Of a stretch of DNA of 64,000 nucleotides, positions 41,865 through 52,792 are shown piece after piece. The translations under genes were made by a program, and so were the position numbers. The first letter of the stretch is position 1; every line of letters starts with the position of its first letter. This DNA comes from Planctomycetaceae bacterium (GTDB lineage: Bacteria; Planctomycetota; Planctomycetia; Planctomycetales; Planctomycetaceae), in NCBI GenBank assembly GCA_002726205.1, contig PBSL01000047.1:1-64000 (forward strand), given 5' to 3'. The notes beneath the pieces are model-generated. The model worked only from the letters and a program-made list of their open reading frames with translations, was not told the DNA's origin and searched no databases.

Positions 41865-43754
41865 GTGATCGTGAACGTGAAGACCGTTTGCCGAACCACG
41901 CTCCTGCTGCTTGTCGCCACCGCTCCACTGACGGCCGGCGAGCCGGTCGGGTTCTGGTCGTTCCAGCCTCTGCGGTTCAGCGTTCCCGACGTGACGAACT
42001 CGGACTGGCCGGCCAACACGCTGGACCGGTTCATCCTGCACCGAATCGAGCGGAACAGGCTGCAGCCGGCCGGACGTGCCAGCGATGAGGTCCTGTTGCG
42101 TCGAGCCTGTTTCGACTTGTTGGGGCTGCCACCGATGCCCGGCCAACGAGACACCTTTCTGGCCGACCGTCGTCCGGGTGCGTGGTCCCGATTGGTCGAC
42201 CGCCTGCTGGCCAATCCCCATATGGGCGAACGCTGGGGACGGCACTGGTTGGACGTCGCCCGGTTTGCCGAGAGCTACGGCTTCGAACACGACCTCGACA
42301 ATCTCAATGCCTACCACTACCGCGACTTCGTGATCCGGGCACTCAACGATGACATGCCATTTGATCGGTTCGTCGGCTGGCAACTGGCCGGTGACGAACT
42401 GGCCGGAGAAAATCCCCTGGCCCGGATGGCCACAGGGTTCCTGGCCGCCGGCGTGCGGAATGCCGACATCGCCGCCGTGCGGGTCGAGCAGGAACGCTAC
42501 GACGAACTCGACGACCTGGCCTCGACCGTCGGCAGTTCGCTGCTGGGACTTTCAATCGGCTGCGCCCGGTGTCACGACCACAAGTACGATCCGATCAGCC
42601 AGGAGGAGTACTATCGCTTCCTGGCCGTGTTTGAACGGACGATTCGTGGCGAGGTCAAGCTCTCGACGGCAGCGACGATGGCCGCGGGAGTGCGTCCGGT
42701 CCTGGTGGCCGGGGAGGGGTTGAAACCGCTGGCCCGGGTCTACAATCCGGGTCCGGCCTTCTACACCAGCACCTGGTACCTCAGGCGTGGCGACGTTCGA
42801 CTCAAGGACCACCAGGTCCGTCCGGGGTTCCTGGACGTGTTGACGGCCGAGGGCGGAACCTACGACTCGTACCGGCGGCCAGAAGTCGAAACGGCCAAGT
42901 CGAGCTATCGCCGCAGTCGGCTGGCGCGATGGATCACTGATTCGCAGAATGGTGCCGGGCGGTTGCTGGCCCGGGTGATCGTCAACAGGCTCTGGCAGCA
43001 TCACTTCGGGCGCGGCCTGGTCACCACGCCCAACGACTTCGGCGAGCGGGGAGAGCGGCCAAGCCATCCGGGCTTGCTGGACTGGTTGGCCACGGAGTTG
43101 ATTCGCGCCGGCTGGCGATTGAAGCCGGTCCATCGCCTGATAGTCTGCAGCGAGGCGTACCGGCAGGCTGTACTGGACGTGGGACGGGTCGAGGGGGATG
43201 CCGGCCTGTTTCGCGGGCGGCCGTTGCGGAGGCTGGAGGCCGAGGCGATTCGTGACAGCCTGGTTGCGGCGGGCGATCGTTTCGATGCCCGGATGTTCGG
43301 TCCTGGCTCCCTCGACACACAACAGCCACGCCGCAGTGTTTACTTCCGCGTCAAACGCAGTCGGCTTGATCCACTGCTGACGCTTTTCGATGTTCCCGAC
43401 ACATTGCAGGGGACGGCGACGCGGCCGGTGACGATTGTTTCGCCACAGGCGCTGGCATTGATGAACGGCACTTTTGTGCGGTCGGCCGCGGCATCGTTTG
43501 CACGGCGACTGATGACCGGAACTTCCGCACCGTCGCCGGCGAACCTGGTGAACCGGGTGTTCCTGCTGGCACTCGGTCGGGAAGCGGCCGGTGAGGAACG
43601 TGCCGCTGCCCTGGTGTTTCTGCACGAGCAGCGTGCGGTTTACGCGTCGACGCCGCGGGGCGAGAGCGACCTGACCGGCGATCCTCTGCAACGGGCGCTG
43701 GTCGACTTGTGCCAGGCGGTGTTTTGTTTGAATGAGTTCGTCTATGTCGAGTAG
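41865..43754 (+). CDS. DUF1549-DUF1553 (PSCyt2/PSD1) protein without PSCyt1
   Basis: The 629-residue protein has a signal peptide (TTLLLLVATAPLTAG) and starts at GTG 41865 (a second GTG at 41871 is equally possible). DUF1549 comes directly after the leader, including MGERWGRHWLDVARFAES and the haem-type IGCARCHDHKYDP. DUF1553 follows (RLARWI, VIVNRLWQHHFGRGLV) and ends VDLCQAVFCLNEFVYVE. The first cytochrome domain of the homologue at 33169 is absent, so only one CxxCH remains. It is paired with the DUF1501 gene 82 nt downstream. Confidence 0.93.
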   Translation: MIVNVKTVCRTTLLLLVATAPLTAGEPVGFWSFQPLRFSVPDVTNSDWPANTLDRFILHRIERNRLQPAGRASDEVLLRRACFDLLGLPPMPGQRDTFLADRRPGAWSRLVDRLLANPHMGERWGRHWLDVARFAESYGFEHDLDNLNAYHYRDFVIRALNDDMPFDRFVGWQLAGDELAGENPLARMATGFLAAGVRNADIAAVRVEQERYDELDDLASTVGSSLLGLSIGCARCHDHKYDPISQEEYYRFLAVFERTIRGEVKLSTAATMAAGVRPVLVAGEGLKPLARVYNPGPAFYTSTWYLRRGDVRLKDHQVRPGFLDVLTAEGGTYDSYRRPEVETAKSSYRRSRLARWITDSQNGAGRLLARVIVNRLWQHHFGRGLVTTPNDFGERGERPSHPGLLDWLATELIRAGWRLKPVHRLIVCSEAYRQAVLDVGRVEGDAGLFRGRPLRRLEAEAIRDSLVAAGDRFDARMFGPGSLDTQQPRRSVYFRVKRSRLDPLLTLFDVPDTLQGTATRPVTIVSPQALALMNGTFVRSAAASFARRLMTGTSAPSPANLVNRVFLLALGREAAGEERAAALVFLHEQRAVYASTPRGESDLTGDPLQRALVDLCQAVFCLNEFVYVE

Positions 43755-43836
43755 CTGTTTGTCGATGTTTCCGACCGCGTCCCGGCGGTAACAGCCTGCT
43801 GTTGTGATCGGCAGGAAACCCGAAGAGTCCCCCAGC

Positions 43837-45288
43837 ATGTCCGCACCGGAAGTTCATTACCGCGATACCAGTTACGCGTCCCGGCGAGATTTCCTTTCGC
43901 GGGCAGGGGCCGGTTGTGGTGCACTGGCATTGGCGGACCTGCTGAGCGATCGGGTCGTGGCCGCACCCGATCCCAGATCGCCGCTGGCACCGCGACCGGC
44001 TCACCACAGCCCGAGAGCCACCTCGGTGATCTGGCTGTTCATGCACGGGGCGCCCAGCCAGGTCGACACCTGGGACTACAAGCCGACCCTGGCCCGTCGC
44101 GACGGGCAGACACTGGAGGGTTTTGACCAATCGACGGGTTTTTTTGCCGGCCGTGGGGGGCCGATCATGAAGTCCCCGTTTTCGTTTCGCCAGTACGGTG
44201 ACTCGGGAACGTGGTGCTCGGAAATTTTTCCGAACCTGGCCCGCCACGTCGACGAGATGGCAATCGTGTACTCGTGTTTCGCTCATGAGAACAATCACTC
44301 GCCGGCCCAGTTCCAGATGAATACCGGCAAGGCTCGGATGGGTTTCCCCTGCGTGGGATCCTGGGTGACCTACGGGCTGGGCAGCGACAACCGGAACCTG
44401 CCGGGTTTCATGGTCATGTACGATTCGCGCGGACGGGGGACACCAAAGTCCCGGGCATCAGCCTGGGGAGCCGGTTTTCTGCCGGGTGTCTTCCAGGGTA
44501 CTGCGGTCAACAGTCAGGGTCCCCCGATCGCCAATCTTGGCCGTCCCCATCAACTGACCGGCAGGATGCAACGCCGGCAACTGGAATTGATCGCGAGGCT
44601 GAACCGGCGTCACCGTGATCGGTTGCCGGAACGCTCCGACCTGGACGCGAGAATCCGCAGCTTCGAACTGGCATTTCGGATGCAGCTGGCCGCGCCCGAA
44701 GCACTTGACCTCTCGGGCGAGACCGAATCGACGCAAAGACTCTACGGCCTGGATGACCCGCGTTGCGGCCACTTCGCACGGCAGGCGCTGATGGCCAGGC
44801 GGTTGATCGAGCGTGGCGTGCGATTCGTTCAGCTCTACAGTGGCGGCTTCAACAACGACGACTGCTGGGACGGTCACAACAATCTCGACAAGAACCATCG
44901 CCAGTTCGGCGGCGAAACCGATCGGCCGATTGGCGGGTTGCTGACCGATCTGAAGCAGAGAGGCCTGCTTGACTCGACGTTGGTCGTTTGCTGCGGTGAG
45001 TTCGGGCGGTTGCCGCTGGTGCAGAAGGGAGGCACCGGTCGCGATCACAACCCCAACGCTTTCACGACCTGGATGGCCGGCGGTGGGATCCGGGGCGGTG
45101 CCCGCCACGGGGCGACCGACGAGATCGGACTCAACGCGGTGACCGACCGCGTCAGTGTCCATGACCTGCACGCCACGATCCTGCACCAGTTGGGACTGGA
45201 CCACGAACGGCTGACGTTCCGTCGCAACAGCCGGGACTTTCGGCTGACCGACATCGCCGGGCGGGTGATTGGCGAGGTGGTCTCGTAG
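43837..45288 (+). CDS. DUF1501 protein (PSD1-paired class)
   Basis: The protein has 483 residues from the ATG at 43837; a GTG at 43804 in the same frame is possible but has no ribosome binding site. The Tat leader is ASRRDFLSRAGAGCGALALA. Paired-class marks are GAPSQVDTWDYKP, VGSWVTYGLGSDNRNLPGFM, CWDGHNNLDKNHRQ, GEFGRLPLVQ, GRDHNPNAFTTWMAGGG and ATDEIG. The end is VHDLHATILHQLGLDHERL. GRTP is changed to GRLP here. It is convergent with the S9 peptidase (32-nt gap). Confidence 0.94.
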   Translation: MSAPEVHYRDTSYASRRDFLSRAGAGCGALALADLLSDRVVAAPDPRSPLAPRPAHHSPRATSVIWLFMHGAPSQVDTWDYKPTLARRDGQTLEGFDQSTGFFAGRGGPIMKSPFSFRQYGDSGTWCSEIFPNLARHVDEMAIVYSCFAHENNHSPAQFQMNTGKARMGFPCVGSWVTYGLGSDNRNLPGFMVMYDSRGRGTPKSRASAWGAGFLPGVFQGTAVNSQGPPIANLGRPHQLTGRMQRRQLELIARLNRRHRDRLPERSDLDARIRSFELAFRMQLAAPEALDLSGETESTQRLYGLDDPRCGHFARQALMARRLIERGVRFVQLYSGGFNNDDCWDGHNNLDKNHRQFGGETDRPIGGLLTDLKQRGLLDSTLVVCCGEFGRLPLVQKGGTGRDHNPNAFTTWMAGGGIRGGARHGATDEIGLNAVTDRVSVHDLHATILHQLGLDHERLTFRRNSRDFRLTDIAGRVIGEVVS

Positions 45289-45320: not shown

Positions 45321-47372
45321 CTAGCGGTGGACCTCGAACCACTTCAACACATGGGCCACCTTGACCATCAGCCGGCTGGGGCGGGCAACGATTCGGTGAC
45401 CGGCCCCGGGAATGCGGACCATCATCGTGTCGATGCCTCGCAGTTTCAGGGCCTGGTAGAACTGTTCGGATTCGGAGATCGGCGTCCTGTGGTCGTCTTC
45501 GCCGGTCAGCAGCATCGTGGGCGTGGTGACCTTGCCGACCAGCGAGATCGGTGAACGGGCCAGATACCGTTCGGGTTCCTCCCACGGCAGATGGTGAAAC
45601 CAGTAGCGGGCGATCCCGGGGTAGGCGTCGGTGACACCGATGAAGCTGTGCCAGTTGATGACTGGTTTCTGGGCGACCGCGGCCCGGAATCGTCCGGTCT
45701 TGCCGACGACCCAGGCGGTGAGGATTCCACCGCCGCTGCCACCGGTGATGTATTGTTGCTGTGGATCAGCCCAGCCCCGTTCGATCAGCGTGTCGAGGCC
45801 GGACATCATGTCCTGGAAGTCGCCTTCGCTTGGGTAGTTGTGGTCGATCAGGTCGGCGAATTTCTTTCCATAACCGGTGCTGCCCCGGGGATTGGTGTAG
45901 AGCACGATGTAGCCGGCAGCCGCGTAGAGCTGGACCTCGAACGAGAACCGCTCGCCGTAGTTGGCAAACGGCCCGCCGTGGATTTCGAGCATCACCGGGT
46001 GGCGGCTGGATGTCTTGGTGCGGTTCTTGGCATCGAAGCCGGGAGGAGTGACGACCCAGCCATGGATTTCCCGGCCGTCGAACGATGACTTGTAGCGGAT
46101 CGACTCGGTGTGTCCGAGTTGACGTTGTGAGAAGAGGTCGTCGTTGAGCCGGGTGATGCGACGGGCCGGCTTGTCGCGCCGGGCGATTGCCACGTCGGCT
46201 GGATATTCGGGACGCGTTTGCGTGTAGGCGAGGGTGCCATTCTTCGAGACGCTGAAACTGCCGCTGGCGTAGGGGCGGCCGATCGTGGTCCCGCCAATGT
46301 TGCTGGCAACCGGCACGATGCGTTCCGGATCCTTCAACGACACGAATCCGACCCTGGTCACGCCCTGGTCGTCGTACTGCACGAACAGTCCGGTGCCGTC
46401 GGCAGCCCAGGTGCAACTCCAGAGGTTGCGGTCGAGTGATCCGGCCAGGCGGCGAGGGGCGGCCTGCTTGTCGTCGAGGCGGAACAGGGTCAACTCGTCG
46501 TCCTGGTAACTCTTGCCGATGTCCCGGTAACCGAGGTAGGCCACCCACTTGCCGTCCGGCGAAACCGTCGGACCGTGGTCGGGACCCTCACGGTTGGTCA
46601 GTTGTGCGATCGCCCTGTTCTCGACCGTGACGGCGAAGAGATCTGAACGCCGCGTCTCCAGTTCCCAGCCCTTGCGGCGGGTGGCCGAGAAGACGATGCG
46701 GTTCCCGTCGGCAGTCCAGGCGAGTTGACCCGAGTGGTTGTAGTTGCCGCTGGTGATCTGCCGGGGCCGTCCGCCGTCGGCGGGGATGACAAAGACGTGC
46801 GAGAATCCCCGTTCGAGGTAGCCTTGACCGTCGGAGCGATAGCGAGCCCGGTCGATCACTCGTGCCGGCTTGGCCCAGTCGGCGCCCTTGGGTGCCGCCG
46901 GCAGCGTGACAAACGGTTTGCGGGGCGAGGGGACCAGCATCGTGAAGGCCAACCAGCTGCCGTCGGGCGACCAGGCGAGGTTGCCCGGCGAGCGATCCAG
47001 TTGAGCGATGCGGGCGGTTTGCCCGGTACTCGCCCAGCGAACGATCAACTCGCTGCCGGAGTCACCGCTGACACTGTAGGCCAATCGCTGGCCATCGCGG
47101 GACCAGCGGGCTCCGGAGGCGCGGACCGAATCATCCAGCAGCGGGCGGTGGTTGCTGCCGTCGGCGTCGATGGTCCACAGTCGTCCGCGGACGCGATCGG
47201 CGATGATGTCCATCGAGTTGCGGGTGTAGACGACCCGTTTGCCATCGGGGGAGATCTGAGGGTTCGAGGCAAACTCGATCGCGAAGGCGTCGATCAGTTC
47301 CAGGGGGCTGGCGGCGGTCAGTACCTGGCCGCTGGCCAGGAAGATCGTCAGTGCGAGCAGTGGGCGAATCAT
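45321..47372 (-). CDS. Secreted S9-family prolyl oligopeptidase-like peptidase
   Basis: The protein has 683 residues from the ATG at 47372; the upstream open frame lacks a leader. The signal peptide is MIRPLLALTIFLASGQVLTA. An N-terminal TolB-like beta-propeller (NPQISPDGKRVVYTR, GPTVSPDGKWVAYLGYRD) is followed by an alpha/beta-hydrolase catalytic domain. The Ser is in YITGGSGGGILTAW (about residue 546), the Asp in LLTGEDDHRTPI (about 622) and the His in PGAGHRI (about 658). This is the dipeptidyl-peptidase/acylaminoacyl-peptidase arrangement. It acts outside the cytoplasm on short peptides. Confidence 0.94.
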   Translation of the reverse strand: MIRPLLALTIFLASGQVLTAASPLELIDAFAIEFASNPQISPDGKRVVYTRNSMDIIADRVRGRLWTIDADGSNHRPLLDDSVRASGARWSRDGQRLAYSVSGDSGSELIVRWASTGQTARIAQLDRSPGNLAWSPDGSWLAFTMLVPSPRKPFVTLPAAPKGADWAKPARVIDRARYRSDGQGYLERGFSHVFVIPADGGRPRQITSGNYNHSGQLAWTADGNRIVFSATRRKGWELETRRSDLFAVTVENRAIAQLTNREGPDHGPTVSPDGKWVAYLGYRDIGKSYQDDELTLFRLDDKQAAPRRLAGSLDRNLWSCTWAADGTGLFVQYDDQGVTRVGFVSLKDPERIVPVASNIGGTTIGRPYASGSFSVSKNGTLAYTQTRPEYPADVAIARRDKPARRITRLNDDLFSQRQLGHTESIRYKSSFDGREIHGWVVTPPGFDAKNRTKTSSRHPVMLEIHGGPFANYGERFSFEVQLYAAAGYIVLYTNPRGSTGYGKKFADLIDHNYPSEGDFQDMMSGLDTLIERGWADPQQQYITGGSGGGILTAWVVGKTGRFRAAVAQKPVINWHSFIGVTDAYPGIARYWFHHLPWEEPERYLARSPISLVGKVTTPTMLLTGEDDHRTPISESEQFYQALKLRGIDTMMVRIPGAGHRIVARPSRLMVKVAHVLKWFEVHR

Positions 47373-47438
47373 GATGCTGTCGGAGTCCTTGAGTAACGGA
47401 AAAAACCAGGGCCTCGTCTGAAACACCCGCTGCCGGGA

Positions 47439-48116
47439 TCAGTTCCAGCCCATCAAGGCAAGTAGAGACCTGCCGCTGTTCAATGCATCGAGAATCAGGA
47501 AATTGGCGATCCCGGTCCATCCCCCTGCCAGATGCGCGAGGATGACTCCATGAAAGACAATGTGGAGGGGGACGAAAATGCTGAAAGAGTAGAGGGTCCC
47601 GTGGACGGTGATGTCGGTCTGGTGAGTCCCCGTTTCATGAATTGTGCTCATGATCTGGTACCCGAAGAAAATGCCCATGACCAGAAAATAGGTCCCCAGG
47701 AGTTCTTCTTTGCAGATGAGATGGAAAGGCAACCACAGGTAGCAGGCCGTCGGGAAGAAATAGGGAGACAGGCAGATCATCAGGTCAGAGAAGGTACCCC
47801 CGGGCCTGTGAGTAAACTTGCCGTGTCCTTTTGCGTACACGTGAAAACCAACCGGTTTCCTGAAAAACAGCAGTGCCCAGATGTTGTGTGTCAACTCGTG
47901 TTCAAACGTGGTGAAGAAAACCAGTCGCTTGCGGAATTTTGAGACCGTCAACAGTGACAGCACCGTTCCGACAAAGAAGAAAACGGCGTGTTGAGAAAGA
48001 GCCGTGAGCAGACCACCGACGATGACAAGCAGGTTGTATCCACAGAGCAGCCCCAGCAGGCCGCTGGCGATGGGTGTGAGGACGATCGTGAGTGCCTTGC
48101 ACAGTTGACGAATCAT
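47439..48116 (-). CDS. Polytopic membrane protein with HExxH motif, possible metalloprotease
   Basis: The 225-residue protein has about five or six hydrophobic segments. HELTH at residues 73-77 (in FFTTFEHELTHNIWAL) is a zincin-type motif at the edge of a membrane helix, as in site-2/M50B-like proteases. A later FSDLMICLSPYFFP may hold a further ligand but is not a textbook motif. I do not recognise the family firmly. The gene is visibly A+T-richer than its neighbours (28 of 60 bases G or C at 47641-47700 against 42 of 60 at 46261-46320), which suggests transfer. It lies 66 nt upstream of the S9 peptidase on the same strand. Confidence 0.78.
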   Translation of the reverse strand: MIRQLCKALTIVLTPIASGLLGLLCGYNLLVIVGGLLTALSQHAVFFFVGTVLSLLTVSKFRKRLVFFTTFEHELTHNIWALLFFRKPVGFHVYAKGHGKFTHRPGGTFSDLMICLSPYFFPTACYLWLPFHLICKEELLGTYFLVMGIFFGYQIMSTIHETGTHQTDITVHGTLYSFSIFVPLHIVFHGVILAHLAGGWTGIANFLILDALNSGRSLLALMGWN

Positions 48117-48170
48117 GTTGTCACGTTCCTGGTTTCCAGGCGAGTCGCGAGGACCCGGGATTGGCGTGGT

Positions 48171-49148
48171 TTACCGCCGGGTTGGCTTGGCCAGCAGTTT
48201 CAGCATGCCACGACCCAGCGCGTCGCCGATCAGGAAGTAGCTTTCGGCGTTACCGAACCAGTGGTGTCCGTGTCCGACGTTGGGCGAGTCCTGGGCGGGT
48301 CGGGCGAAGGCGGTGGTCGAGACGAACGCCACTCCCTCGGACCGCCGGGCGGCCTCCGCCTGGGCGGCGCGGATTGCCAGCATGTTCTTGCCAGCCTTCG
48401 GTCCCCCGTTGCCCAGTTCTCCGATGACAACCGGCAGGCCTGGTGATCTCAGGTCGCGACGAACATCGTTGACCAGGTGGACGAGGTTCTGTTGGTACTC
48501 GGAGCGGGCCTTGCCGTCGAACATGTCGTTCCAGCCCTGGAACCAGACGAATCCCGCCAGGCGATACCCTCCGGCCGACGGCTTGGGCAGTTCCTGCTGC
48601 AAGCGGGCCAGTCCCGCGTGAACCTCGGAGAGCATCCGGTGGTAGTAGGCCCCGGTTGGTCCGGTGGCACTGGGAGGACGGAAGTCCCGGTGGAGGCTCT
48701 TGCCCCCCCAGGCGGTCTTGATCAACAGGACCGGCGCCTGGATCGCGTCACCGACGACGTGACCGAACTGGAATTCGGGTCCGATGTGGTGCTTGCCGGG
48801 GTAGCCGGCGAACCCGATCGAGAGGCCGCCGCTCTTGAGTTTCTCGCGGGTCCGGAAACGGACGAACACGTCATCACGGACGACCCAGTCTCCCCCGGCG
48901 GTACGAACGTGCGCGTACCGTTTCGCGTTGGCCGGGACCTGGATCACTTTCAGCAGCGTGCCCCGCCCCCCGTTGTAGTGCTTGGGATGATCGAGATCGA
49001 CGACTCCCTGGCCCTGCATGTTGGACTGGCCGGCAAGGATGAAGACCTGCAGCGGCGGGGGCGGTGGATCGGCAGCCGACGTCGTCGTGGCCAGCCAACC
49101 TGCCAGCAGCAGTGTGGCCAGGCCGGTGATGGTGCCAGAAGCAGGCAT
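48171..49148 (-). CDS. Secreted SASA-type carbohydrate esterase (sialate O-acetylesterase-like)
   Basis: The 325-residue protein has a leader (GLATLLLAGWLATTTSAAD) followed by a proline run. The SGNH/SASA blocks are FILAGQSNMQGQG (nucleophile Ser), the oxyanion Gly/Asn regions, GFVWFQGWNDMF and the terminal GHGHHWFGNAESYFLIGDAL. It is predicted to deacetylate polysaccharide residues outside the cytoplasm. It follows the paired DUF1501 gene by only 3 nt, so it belongs to the same operon as a DUF1549/1553 + DUF1501 pair. Confidence 0.92.
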   Translation of the reverse strand: MPASGTITGLATLLLAGWLATTTSAADPPPPPLQVFILAGQSNMQGQGVVDLDHPKHYNGGRGTLLKVIQVPANAKRYAHVRTAGGDWVVRDDVFVRFRTREKLKSGGLSIGFAGYPGKHHIGPEFQFGHVVGDAIQAPVLLIKTAWGGKSLHRDFRPPSATGPTGAYYHRMLSEVHAGLARLQQELPKPSAGGYRLAGFVWFQGWNDMFDGKARSEYQQNLVHLVNDVRRDLRSPGLPVVIGELGNGGPKAGKNMLAIRAAQAEAARRSEGVAFVSTTAFARPAQDSPNVGHGHHWFGNAESYFLIGDALGRGMLKLLAKPTRR

Positions 49149-49151
49149 GGG

Positions 49152-50558
49152 CTATCCCTGCACCAGTCGCTCGGCGAGATTGTTCTGGCCACCGACGTCG
49201 GTCAGCCGGTGGTAACGGCCTTCGAAGTAGTAGGTCAATTCCTCGTGGTCGAGGCCGAGCAGTCCGAGCATCGAGGCGTGCAGGTCGTTGACGTGGACCT
49301 TGTCTTCGACTGCCGCGAAGCCGAAGTCGTCGGTGGCACCAATCGCCTTGCCGCCGCGAATGCCGCCCCCGGCCATCCAGGCACTGAAACCGTAAGGGTG
49401 ATGATCGCGGCCGTTGGAACCCTGCATGATCGGGGTGCGGCCGAACTCGCCGACCCAGACCAGCAGGGTGCTTTCGAGCAGTCCGCGTTGTTCCAGGTCG
49501 CTGATCAGCCCGGCAATCGGTTGGTCCACCTTTTTTCCCTGGCTGGTGTGGTTGCCCTGGCAGTCACCGTGAGCATCCCAGCCACCGCTGATCAGTTGCA
49601 CGTAACGCACACCCCGCTCGACCATCCGCCGGGCCATCAGGCACATCTTGCCGAAGCGGTCGGCCGGTCCTGCCCCGATACCGTACAGGTCGCGGGTGGC
49701 CTTGGTTTCGTGGGAGAGGTCGATCAGTTCCGGGGCCGCCGTCTGCATCCGGAAGGCCAGTTCGTAGTTGGCGATGCGGGCATCGAGGCGGCTGTCGCCG
49801 GGGCGAGTCGCAAGGTGTTGGCGATTCCAACGGTTGATCTGGTCGAGCAGCATCCGTTGTTCGCCGGCAGCGATGTTCTTGTGACGCGCCAGGTTCTGGA
49901 TCGGGGTTCCCTGGGCCCGCATGTCGGTGCCCTGGTAGACGGCCGGCAGAAACCCGGAGCTGTACATCGAAGCTCCGTTGCGGAAAATGCCGTCGGTCAT
50001 GGCGATGTAGGCCGGCAGGCTGTTGCTCTGGGTTCCCAGGCCATAGACGACCCAGGCGCCGGTACTGGGGTGTCCCAGCAGGCGGGTGCCCGAGTGCATC
50101 ATGATCATCGCCGAACCGTGAATGAACAGGTCGTGGTGCAGTGAACGAATGATTGCCAGTTTGTCGGCGTGCCGGGAGAGGCGGGGGAAGATACTGGAGA
50201 TTTCCAGGCCACTCTCGCCGCACCTGTTGAACTGGAATCGCGGGGCCATCACTTTCGCGTCGGCGGTGTTGATCTGGGCCAGGTCATAATCCTGCAGGCT
50301 CTTGGGAAGGAGTTGCCCGTCGAACTTCTTCATGACGGGCTTGGGGTCAAAGGTCTCCAGTTGACTGGGGCCCCCCTGCATGAACAGGAAGATGACATTC
50401 CTGGCGGTCCCGGGCAGATGGGCCGACCGGGCCAGCAACGGATTGGCCGCCGACGCCGCCTGGCCGCGGGCCTCGTTTCTTAACAGCTCCCCCAGGGCCA
50501 GGCCGCCAAAGCCCAGCCCACCGGTCTGGAGGAACTCGCGTCGTGAAGAAATGGTCAT
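49152..50558 (-). CDS. DUF1501 protein (PSD1-paired class)
   Basis: The protein has 468 residues from the ATG at 50558; the frame is open to 50939, but that part lies inside the upstream gene. The Tat leader is SSRREFLQTGGLGFGGLALG. Paired-class marks are GGPSQLETFDPKP, GAWVVYGLGTQSNSLPAYIA, GWDAHGDCQGNH, GEFGRTPIMQ, GRDHHPYGFSAWMAGGG and ATDDFG. The C-terminus is VHVNDLHASMLGLLGLDHEE. The partner DUF1549/1553 gene ends 32 nt upstream and an esterase starts 3 nt downstream. Confidence 0.94.
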   Translation of the reverse strand: MTISSRREFLQTGGLGFGGLALGELLRNEARGQAASAANPLLARSAHLPGTARNVIFLFMQGGPSQLETFDPKPVMKKFDGQLLPKSLQDYDLAQINTADAKVMAPRFQFNRCGESGLEISSIFPRLSRHADKLAIIRSLHHDLFIHGSAMIMMHSGTRLLGHPSTGAWVVYGLGTQSNSLPAYIAMTDGIFRNGASMYSSGFLPAVYQGTDMRAQGTPIQNLARHKNIAAGEQRMLLDQINRWNRQHLATRPGDSRLDARIANYELAFRMQTAAPELIDLSHETKATRDLYGIGAGPADRFGKMCLMARRMVERGVRYVQLISGGWDAHGDCQGNHTSQGKKVDQPIAGLISDLEQRGLLESTLLVWVGEFGRTPIMQGSNGRDHHPYGFSAWMAGGGIRGGKAIGATDDFGFAAVEDKVHVNDLHASMLGLLGLDHEELTYYFEGRYHRLTDVGGQNNLAERLVQG

Positions 50559-50590
50559 GACCGGGTGGCCTGTTGTGATTTCCTGGCTTG

Positions 50591-52792
50591 TCAGTCCGCG
50601 AACGCAAACTCGGTGAGGTTGAAAACGGCCAGGCAGAGTTTGGAGAGGGCATGCCCCTTGGCCGGCGGCAGGGCGGCCAGTGCCGGGGGCGAGCCATCCA
50701 GGGGGCCGGCCTTGGTCTGTTCCAGGGCCTCGAGCAGCTTCAGGGCCGAGGCGGATTCCTCGGCCCGGGGCGGGCGGCCCAGGGTGATTTGCCAGAGCCG
50801 CTCGACGCGGGCCTTCGAGTCGGCGCCGGCCTCCTTGGCCACGCGGCCGGCCAGGTGCATCGCCTGGCGGAAGACGGACTTGTTGTTGAGTCCCCACAGC
50901 GCCTGCGGGGCGACGGTGGTCACATCGCGGGTCGGACAACTGACCGACGTGACCGGCGTGTCGAAGACATCGAACATCGGGAACTTGAAGTTGCGACGCA
51001 CGAGGATGTAGAGACCGCGGCGGGTGTGCTGGGCCGGATCAGCCGAGACGACCCAGTGCCATTTTTCCCGCAGCGAGGCGATCTCGTCGGCCGCCAGCGG
51101 CGGCACCACCGGAGGACCCCCCATCGCCGGGTTCAACGTGCCCGCTGACACGTGGACCGCGTCCCACAGCGCTTCGGCCTCGAGTCGTCGCCGGCTGAAT
51201 CGCCACAGCAACCGGTTGTCGGGATCCTCGGCCAGGTGCTTGGCAGTGGCAAACCGGCTGGTTTGCCGGTAGGTCGCCGAGTTCATGATCAGGCGGTGCA
51301 GGTTCTTGACCTTCCAGCCGTCGGCGACGAAGCCGGTGGCAAGCCAGTCAAGCAGGCCGGGATGCGAGGGCAGCTGGCCCATCTTGCCGAGATCGTTGGG
51401 TGTCTCGACGATGCCACGGCCGAAGTGCCACTGCCAGATCCGGTTGACCATCACGCGGGCTGTCAGGGGATGGTCGGGTCTTGTCAGCCAGAGGGCGAAT
51501 TGTGCACGGCTTCCGAAGGGCTGGGGCAACGCTGCGGGCGTGCCGGTGGCCTGGGCCAGGGATGCCGGCAGCGCCGGCGACATCCGTTGCAACGGCTTGT
51601 TCAGTTCGCCTCGCTCGAGCAGATGGACGGGCCGGATCAACGCGGGATGCTGCCGGCCGAGCACGCTGGCGGTGGGGATGTGCATCAGGCCGACGTAATC
51701 GACGGCCGCCTGGCCGGCGGCACGTTCTGGCAACTTGAGCACCGACTCGGCGACGGCGGTGAGCAGCGTCTGCTTGCGGGCGGATTGTTCGGGAGTCAAC
51801 GGCTTGCCCTTGGTCCGGGCTTCGAACTGCCGGTAGGTCTTCGTCGCCTCCTGGACCGCAACCACCTTGGGGTACGCTTGCCGCCAGTCGGCTTCTTCCA
51901 TTGCCGTCCACAGCGGGAGCTCGACTTCCCGGGCCGAGGCGAAGATGGCGTGCAGGGCAAAGTAATCGGCCTGGGTGAACGGGTCGAACTTGTGTTCGTG
52001 ACAACGGGCGCATCCCAGCGTCAGTCCCATGAACGCCGACGCGGTCGTGTTGACCCAGTCGATGGTGGTCTCGTAGGCCAGTCGTCGGGCGTCAAGGCCG
52101 GACTCGTGGACTCGTGGACCCAGGCTGAAGAAGCCGGTCCCGACACGGGCCTCGAGGTGACGCCGCTTCTTGGCCGGGACGATGTAGACGCGACGAGGAT
52201 CCAGGTCGAGATTGTCGGGCCAGAGTTCGTCACCGGCGATCTGTTCCTGGACGAAGGTGTGATAGGGCTTGTCGTCGTTGAAGCTGTTGACGACGTAATC
52301 CCGGTACCGCCAGGCATTGCGGTAGTAGATGTCGGTTTCGTAACCCCCGCTGTCGGCGTAGCGAGCGACGTCCAGCCAGTGCCGGCCCCATCGCTCGCCG
52401 TAGTGCTTCGAGTCCAACAGCGTGTCGATCAGTCGCGACCAGGCGCCGGCTGACTTGTCATCGAGAAATGCGGCGACCTGGTCGGGCGAGGGAGGCAGGC
52501 CGATCAGGTCGAAATAGGCTCGGCGGACCAGTGTCCGGCGAGATGCTTCGCCGGCCGCCTCCAGGCCGGCTTCCCCGAGTTGCTGCAGGACAAACTGGTC
52601 GATGGGGTTTCGCACCCGCGCGGTCGGCTTCAGCGACTTGCGATCCGGCGGCGTGGGACGTGTCGGTTTTCGGAAGGCCCAGTGGATTTCCTCGGGCGGC
52701 TTGGCCGGATCGGCTGCCACCGCGCGTTCGGCCTGTACCGCACACGCCAGTACGACGAGCGTGGCCAGAGCCTGAGGAAGCGTCGGTCGCAT
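50591..52792 (-). CDS. DUF1549-DUF1553 (PSCyt2/PSD1) protein without PSCyt1
   Basis: The 733-residue protein has a signal peptide (LATLVVLACAVQAERAVAAD). DUF1549 includes YGERWGRHWLDVARYADSG and the haem-type LGCARCHEHKFDP. An extra stretch of about 110 residues between DUF1549 and DUF1553 (from WRQAYPKVVAVQEATKTYRQ) is rich in Ala and Gln and looks helical. DUF1553 ends LCLAVFNLTEFAFAD. There is only one CxxCH. First gene of the operon DUF1549/1553, DUF1501, SASA esterase. Confidence 0.93.
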   Translation of the reverse strand: MRPTLPQALATLVVLACAVQAERAVAADPAKPPEEIHWAFRKPTRPTPPDRKSLKPTARVRNPIDQFVLQQLGEAGLEAAGEASRRTLVRRAYFDLIGLPPSPDQVAAFLDDKSAGAWSRLIDTLLDSKHYGERWGRHWLDVARYADSGGYETDIYYRNAWRYRDYVVNSFNDDKPYHTFVQEQIAGDELWPDNLDLDPRRVYIVPAKKRRHLEARVGTGFFSLGPRVHESGLDARRLAYETTIDWVNTTASAFMGLTLGCARCHEHKFDPFTQADYFALHAIFASAREVELPLWTAMEEADWRQAYPKVVAVQEATKTYRQFEARTKGKPLTPEQSARKQTLLTAVAESVLKLPERAAGQAAVDYVGLMHIPTASVLGRQHPALIRPVHLLERGELNKPLQRMSPALPASLAQATGTPAALPQPFGSRAQFALWLTRPDHPLTARVMVNRIWQWHFGRGIVETPNDLGKMGQLPSHPGLLDWLATGFVADGWKVKNLHRLIMNSATYRQTSRFATAKHLAEDPDNRLLWRFSRRRLEAEALWDAVHVSAGTLNPAMGGPPVVPPLAADEIASLREKWHWVVSADPAQHTRRGLYILVRRNFKFPMFDVFDTPVTSVSCPTRDVTTVAPQALWGLNNKSVFRQAMHLAGRVAKEAGADSKARVERLWQITLGRPPRAEESASALKLLEALEQTKAGPLDGSPPALAALPPAKGHALSKLCLAVFNLTEFAFAD

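Follow-up and report, generated by a model that had tools for sequence, protein, structure and literature searches.

How did a comparatively A+T-rich gene for a membrane protein with an HExxH motif come to lie among planctomycete genes, and what might its product do? An earlier note had suggested a horizontally acquired intramembrane protease, or alternatively an immunity- or secretion-associated protein. We analyzed the gene within the window, the whole 64,000-nt stretch of DNA in which it lies, and in comparison with relatives from other genomes. The gene and its boundaries are as follows.

47439-48116, minus strand: gene for a predicted M50B-like membrane metalloprotease of 225 aa, well supported as horizontally acquired (from the ORF, its relatives and the tree)
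48117-48170, minus strand: upstream boundary, 54 bp separating the gene from SASA (48171-49148); three relatives have S9 immediately after SASA
47373-47438, minus strand: downstream boundary, 66 bp separating the gene from the S9 peptidase ATG at 47372, from the locus comparison

The ORF begins with ATG and encodes a hydrophobic protein with several hydrophobic stretches. An HExxH motif lies in or beside a hydrophobic segment, in the form of HELTH at residues 73-77 (sequence VFFTTFEHELTHNIWALLFF), confirming the earlier description of a multi-span protein with this motif near a hydrophobic segment. The deviant base composition was likewise confirmed, with the window serving as the reference: GC is 53.0% in the M50B gene, whereas 678-bp stretches in the rest of the window average 63.8% (SD 1.9%, minimum 55.5%), and all five of the lowest-GC 678-bp stretches in the whole window fall on the gene. 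Of the two 60-nt counts originally cited, 42 of 60 G+C at 46261-46320 is exact, while the count at 47641-47700 is 29 of 60 and had been given as 28, one base too low. Stretches of 60 nt with 28 or fewer G+C make up 0.5% of all 60-mers, and 229 of them lie outside the gene; the outlier is the shift in GC over the length of the gene, a single 60-mer at such a level not being rare on its own.

Three membrane proteins in the window with an equal hydrophobic fraction (0.51-0.53) are encoded at 63-64% GC. Hydrophobicity alone therefore does not explain the low GC, and the gene falls outside the range of like membrane proteins within the window. At codon positions 1 and 2, GC is 0.51 and 0.38 in the M50B gene versus about 0.60 and 0.47 for these three proteins, and the low GC comes mainly from these two positions, that is, from amino-acid choice. 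GC3 is 0.69, only a little lower than in typical genes (0.72-0.85), and it is 0.64-0.75 in copies from the same family and 0.20-0.32 in two close relatives, L005 and L036; the gene is not among the eight ORFs with the worst codon-usage fit. These values suggest that GC3 is partly ameliorated, the synonymous sites having moved hostward while the amino-acid make-up did not. The window lacks tRNA genes, and neither terminator-like nor promoter-like sites were found around the M50B gene.

The neighboring genes belong to the S9 peptidase, SASA esterase, DUF1501 and DUF1549/DUF1553 families, and the PSCyt2/PSD1/DUF1501 genes suggest a genome of planctomycete type. In three genomes from another genus of the same family (G076, G103 and G123), the row DUF1549-DUF1501-SASA-S9 is present at 72-84% identity with SASA directly before S9, the two genes overlapping by 4 bp in G076 and lying about 34 bp apart in G123. 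No M50B match was found in these stretches of the three genomes, which apparently fell within the family-wide search for relatives as well, where none is listed from them. The M50B gene is placed exactly between SASA and S9 of this conserved row, and the sharing of the row around the gene with relatives speaks against assembly contamination. The SASA-M50B-S9 group is itself flanked by two DUF1549/DUF1553 plus DUF1501 pairs (41865-45288 and 49155-52792), which lie on opposite strands and face inward.

On its own, the window protein matched no relevant Pfam or NCBIfam model and no M50 model, and did not match Peptidase_M50B (PF13398) even at E 10. Whole genomes of the same family, of further families in its class and phylum, and of Bacteroidota supplied relatives; of the 27 that were aligned, 26 match PF13398 with E values no higher than 1 (best 2e-9). 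The ortholog L005, which shares 53% identity with the window protein, scores 26.0 bits at a cut-off of 26, and L036 falls below the cut-off with 22.3 bits; in a second set of relatives, L051 (E 8e-13), L064, L023 and L007 score above it. These matches suggest that the window protein is a divergent member of the Peptidase_M50B-like, site-2-protease-like group. The family shares with PF13398 the HExxH motif, a Gly-rich stretch and then a PYFxP segment, whereas the window protein is too divergent to score and has QTDI, not LDG, as its third motif. Matches to DUF3267 ('putative zincin peptidase', PF11667) were weak, occurring in 9 of 27 relatives (best E 0.0016); this model fits the relatives less well than PF13398 and was not matched by the window protein.

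CPBP/CAAX and M48 proteins are also membrane proteins with Glu/His metal sites, but the family differs from them in that neither the CPBP/CAAX (PF02517) nor the M48 Pfam models matched any of 27 members. Of the M50- or CAAX-like affinity that the earlier note had proposed, the M50 part was supported and the CAAX part was not; among the remote homologies considered, M50B was recovered through the relatives, and CPBP and M48 were not recovered. The genome also encodes ordinary M50 proteins, making the M50B-like gene an addition. When the family profile was compared with these M50 proteins, in an alignment of only three, 14 columns around HExxH were aligned at a probability of 3.4%. The protein type is already known, and the window protein would add a divergent member to it; a literature search found no paper on this M50B-like subfamily.

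In an alignment of 32 relatives, selected as bearing HExxH, the invariant columns are H73, E74, H77, P118, Y119, P122 and D168, so that HELTH proved to be conserved among the homologs examined. These residues lie in three motifs.

47886-47900, minus strand: HELTH, residues 73-77, the predicted catalytic zinc-binding HExxH (H73, E74 and H77 invariant, n = 32)
47748-47768, minus strand: SPYFFPT, residues 117-123 (P118, Y119 and P122 invariant, n = 32)
47610-47636, minus strand: ETGTHQTDI, residues 161-169, with D168 at 47613-47615 (D168 invariant, n = 32)

D168 is the probable third zinc ligand and would be the counterpart of the Asp in the LDG motif of site-2 proteases. It sits 95 residues after H73, in a local motif that reads QTDI rather than LDG; if D148 is the ligand in MjS2P, the spacing there is 94 residues. 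In a planctomycete-side clade from family f5 of the same class (L069, L070, L072, L073 and L074), HExxH is lost and the Asp is replaced by Glu or Ser in all five members, which are probably pseudo-proteases kept as long ORFs. This joint loss supports the assignment of D168 as the third metal ligand. Like the site-2 proteases (M50; MjS2P, RseP, SpoIVFB), the window protein has HExxH, a downstream Asp and a predicted membrane-embedded core; it differs in having neither a PDZ domain nor LDG, and the similarity in sequence is marginal, the family profile aligning HExxH with HELGH of MjS2P (3b4r; H54-H58, printed numbering) only weakly, at E 2.3. An AlphaFold model of the window protein, for which the input alignment held two sequences (the window protein and L005), had a pLDDT of 37 and was unusable, which leaves conservation as the basis for the metal site.

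A tree of 55 rows groups the window gene with L036 (support 100/95) and then with L005 (100/100), at 53-58% identity, and the same-family copies form a clade apart from it. L005 comes from a Crocinitomicaceae MAG and L036 from a 9-kb contig of the same Bacteroidota order, both being Flavobacteriales-side. Forcing the window gene together with the same-family copies changed the log-likelihood by -194 units (p 2e-71), forcing it into the wider planctomycete-side clade gave p 1.6e-4, and holding L005 and L036 together without it was weakly rejected (AU p 0.02); the groups were tested after the tree was seen, and these p values are a guide, not a formal test. The margin of rejection is wide for both planctomycete-side groupings. 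The amino-acid make-up of L005 and L036 differs from that of the other rows, a bias that can distort trees. The L005 gene has 26% GC and its locus 27%, and a neighbor of L036 has a T9SS-like C-terminal domain at its end (read by eye); both features fit a Bacteroidota source. Horizontal transfer of the M50B-like gene, as the earlier note had supposed, is well supported by the nesting among Bacteroidota copies, the rejection of a same-family grouping and the gene-free locus in three relatives. The donor was very probably a marine Bacteroidota lineage, and the nesting, though with few rows, points to transfer from Bacteroidota to the planctomycete.

Two other histories were weighed against this one. 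The group does have members in further genomes of the same family, as well as in additional families of this class and phylum, and in GC3 the window gene is close to the same-family copies, as would be expected had a planctomycete M50B gene been inherited vertically and its composition drifted through a hydrophobic, Phe/Ile-rich protein. This account is highly improbable and already largely contradicted: the same-family copies are a separate clade whose union with the window gene was rejected in the tree tests, the locus exists without the gene in three relatives, and equally hydrophobic window proteins retain 63-64% GC. It is also possible, but unlikely, that the transfer was real and that a third, unsampled lineage outside Bacteroidota was the donor to both sides. 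Close Bacteroidota copies numbered just two, and the gene is rare there: it is present in 1 of 39 family genomes, and of the 399 genomes in the order, 16 had any relative, a close one in only two cases. Both closest copies nevertheless come from one Bacteroidota order and have Bacteroidota-like neighbors, and the window gene nests within them rather than beside L005 and L036 as a pair.

As to function, the wider family includes probable pseudo-enzymes (L069, L070, L072-L074), and the window protein could by the same token be a non-catalytic membrane protein acting in immunity, as a chaperone or as a regulatory pseudo-protease. We regard this as very unlikely, given that all metal-site residues were kept despite the change at third positions (GC3 0.69 versus 0.20-0.32) and that defence and phage families gave no match. 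A daptide-like protease for RiPP maturation or export is highly improbable: three relatives weakly match the model of the daptide HExxH intramembrane protease (best E 0.017), but the window protein does not, and inspection by eye showed no maturation genes next to the window gene, L005 or L036, and no precursor-like neighbor common to them. The association with immunity or secretion raised in the earlier note was not sustained. An anti-phage defence or immunity role found no support, since PADLOC and PHROGs gave no match for the window protein and the neighbors are SASA and S9; no relatives were found in plasmid and phage collections or on viral contigs. A secretion-associated role likewise found no support, with no toxin, secretion or RiPP gene recognized beside the M50B gene.

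We therefore favor, with a probability of roughly 0.75, an intact polytopic M50B-like intramembrane zinc metalloprotease, horizontally acquired, most likely from Bacteroidota, as a single-gene insertion. In this enzyme, H73 and H77 of HELTH would hold zinc and E74 would serve as the general base, with D168 on a later segment completing zinc binding. The enzyme would then cut a membrane-embedded or membrane-proximal substrate, to which the neighboring gene families do not point. Both zinc binding and proteolytic activity are predictions from the conserved residues, and the gene is presumably expressed jointly with its neighbors. The single gene would have been inserted between the SASA-esterase and S9-peptidase genes, its third codon positions drifting towards host GC afterwards. 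Transfer of a known protein type is fairly ordinary. The case would offer a clean example of a single membrane-protease gene crossing between phyla, in which relatives still show the unoccupied locus and synonymous sites have ameliorated sooner than the protein sequence. The loss of Asp alongside HExxH backs a third-ligand role in a region of M50B-like space where our searches turned up no close solved structure.

A possible trace of the insertion is present at the start of the gene.

48102-48120, minus strand: 19-nt near-repeat, 84% identical to 47358-47376; the M50B and S9 start codons lie within the pair

For the first 60 nt of the M50B gene, the best match in the window is the S9 start, with a score of 31 versus 27 for the next (120-base chunks). 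Among 2000 shuffles, none reached the S9/M50B score when scoring was strict and one did when it was lax; among 435 pairs formed by other gene starts, one did. The near-repeat was noticed post hoc and is weak evidence, a lead, for how the gene was joined in. A more specific scenario is one in which a lone foreign protease entered the DUF1549-DUF1501-SASA-S9 row without mobile-element remnants, its first 40-60 bases being similar to the S9 start and perhaps a copy of it, and in which it uses the host start region and works jointly with the enzymes of the row; we consider this quite unlikely.

Several observations concern the wider set of relatives. L071, the sister of the HExxH-less clade, keeps HEATH and has Glu in place of the Asp. 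L037-L048 form a distinct M50B-like clade, mostly with HE(S/A)LH, in twelve genomes of the order of G402, and their loci have a GC of 54-65%, which is high for that order. One further member, L013/L015 (G115:C6:637299-637980), is spread over two overlapping frames, reflecting a frameshift, a sequencing error or recent decay.
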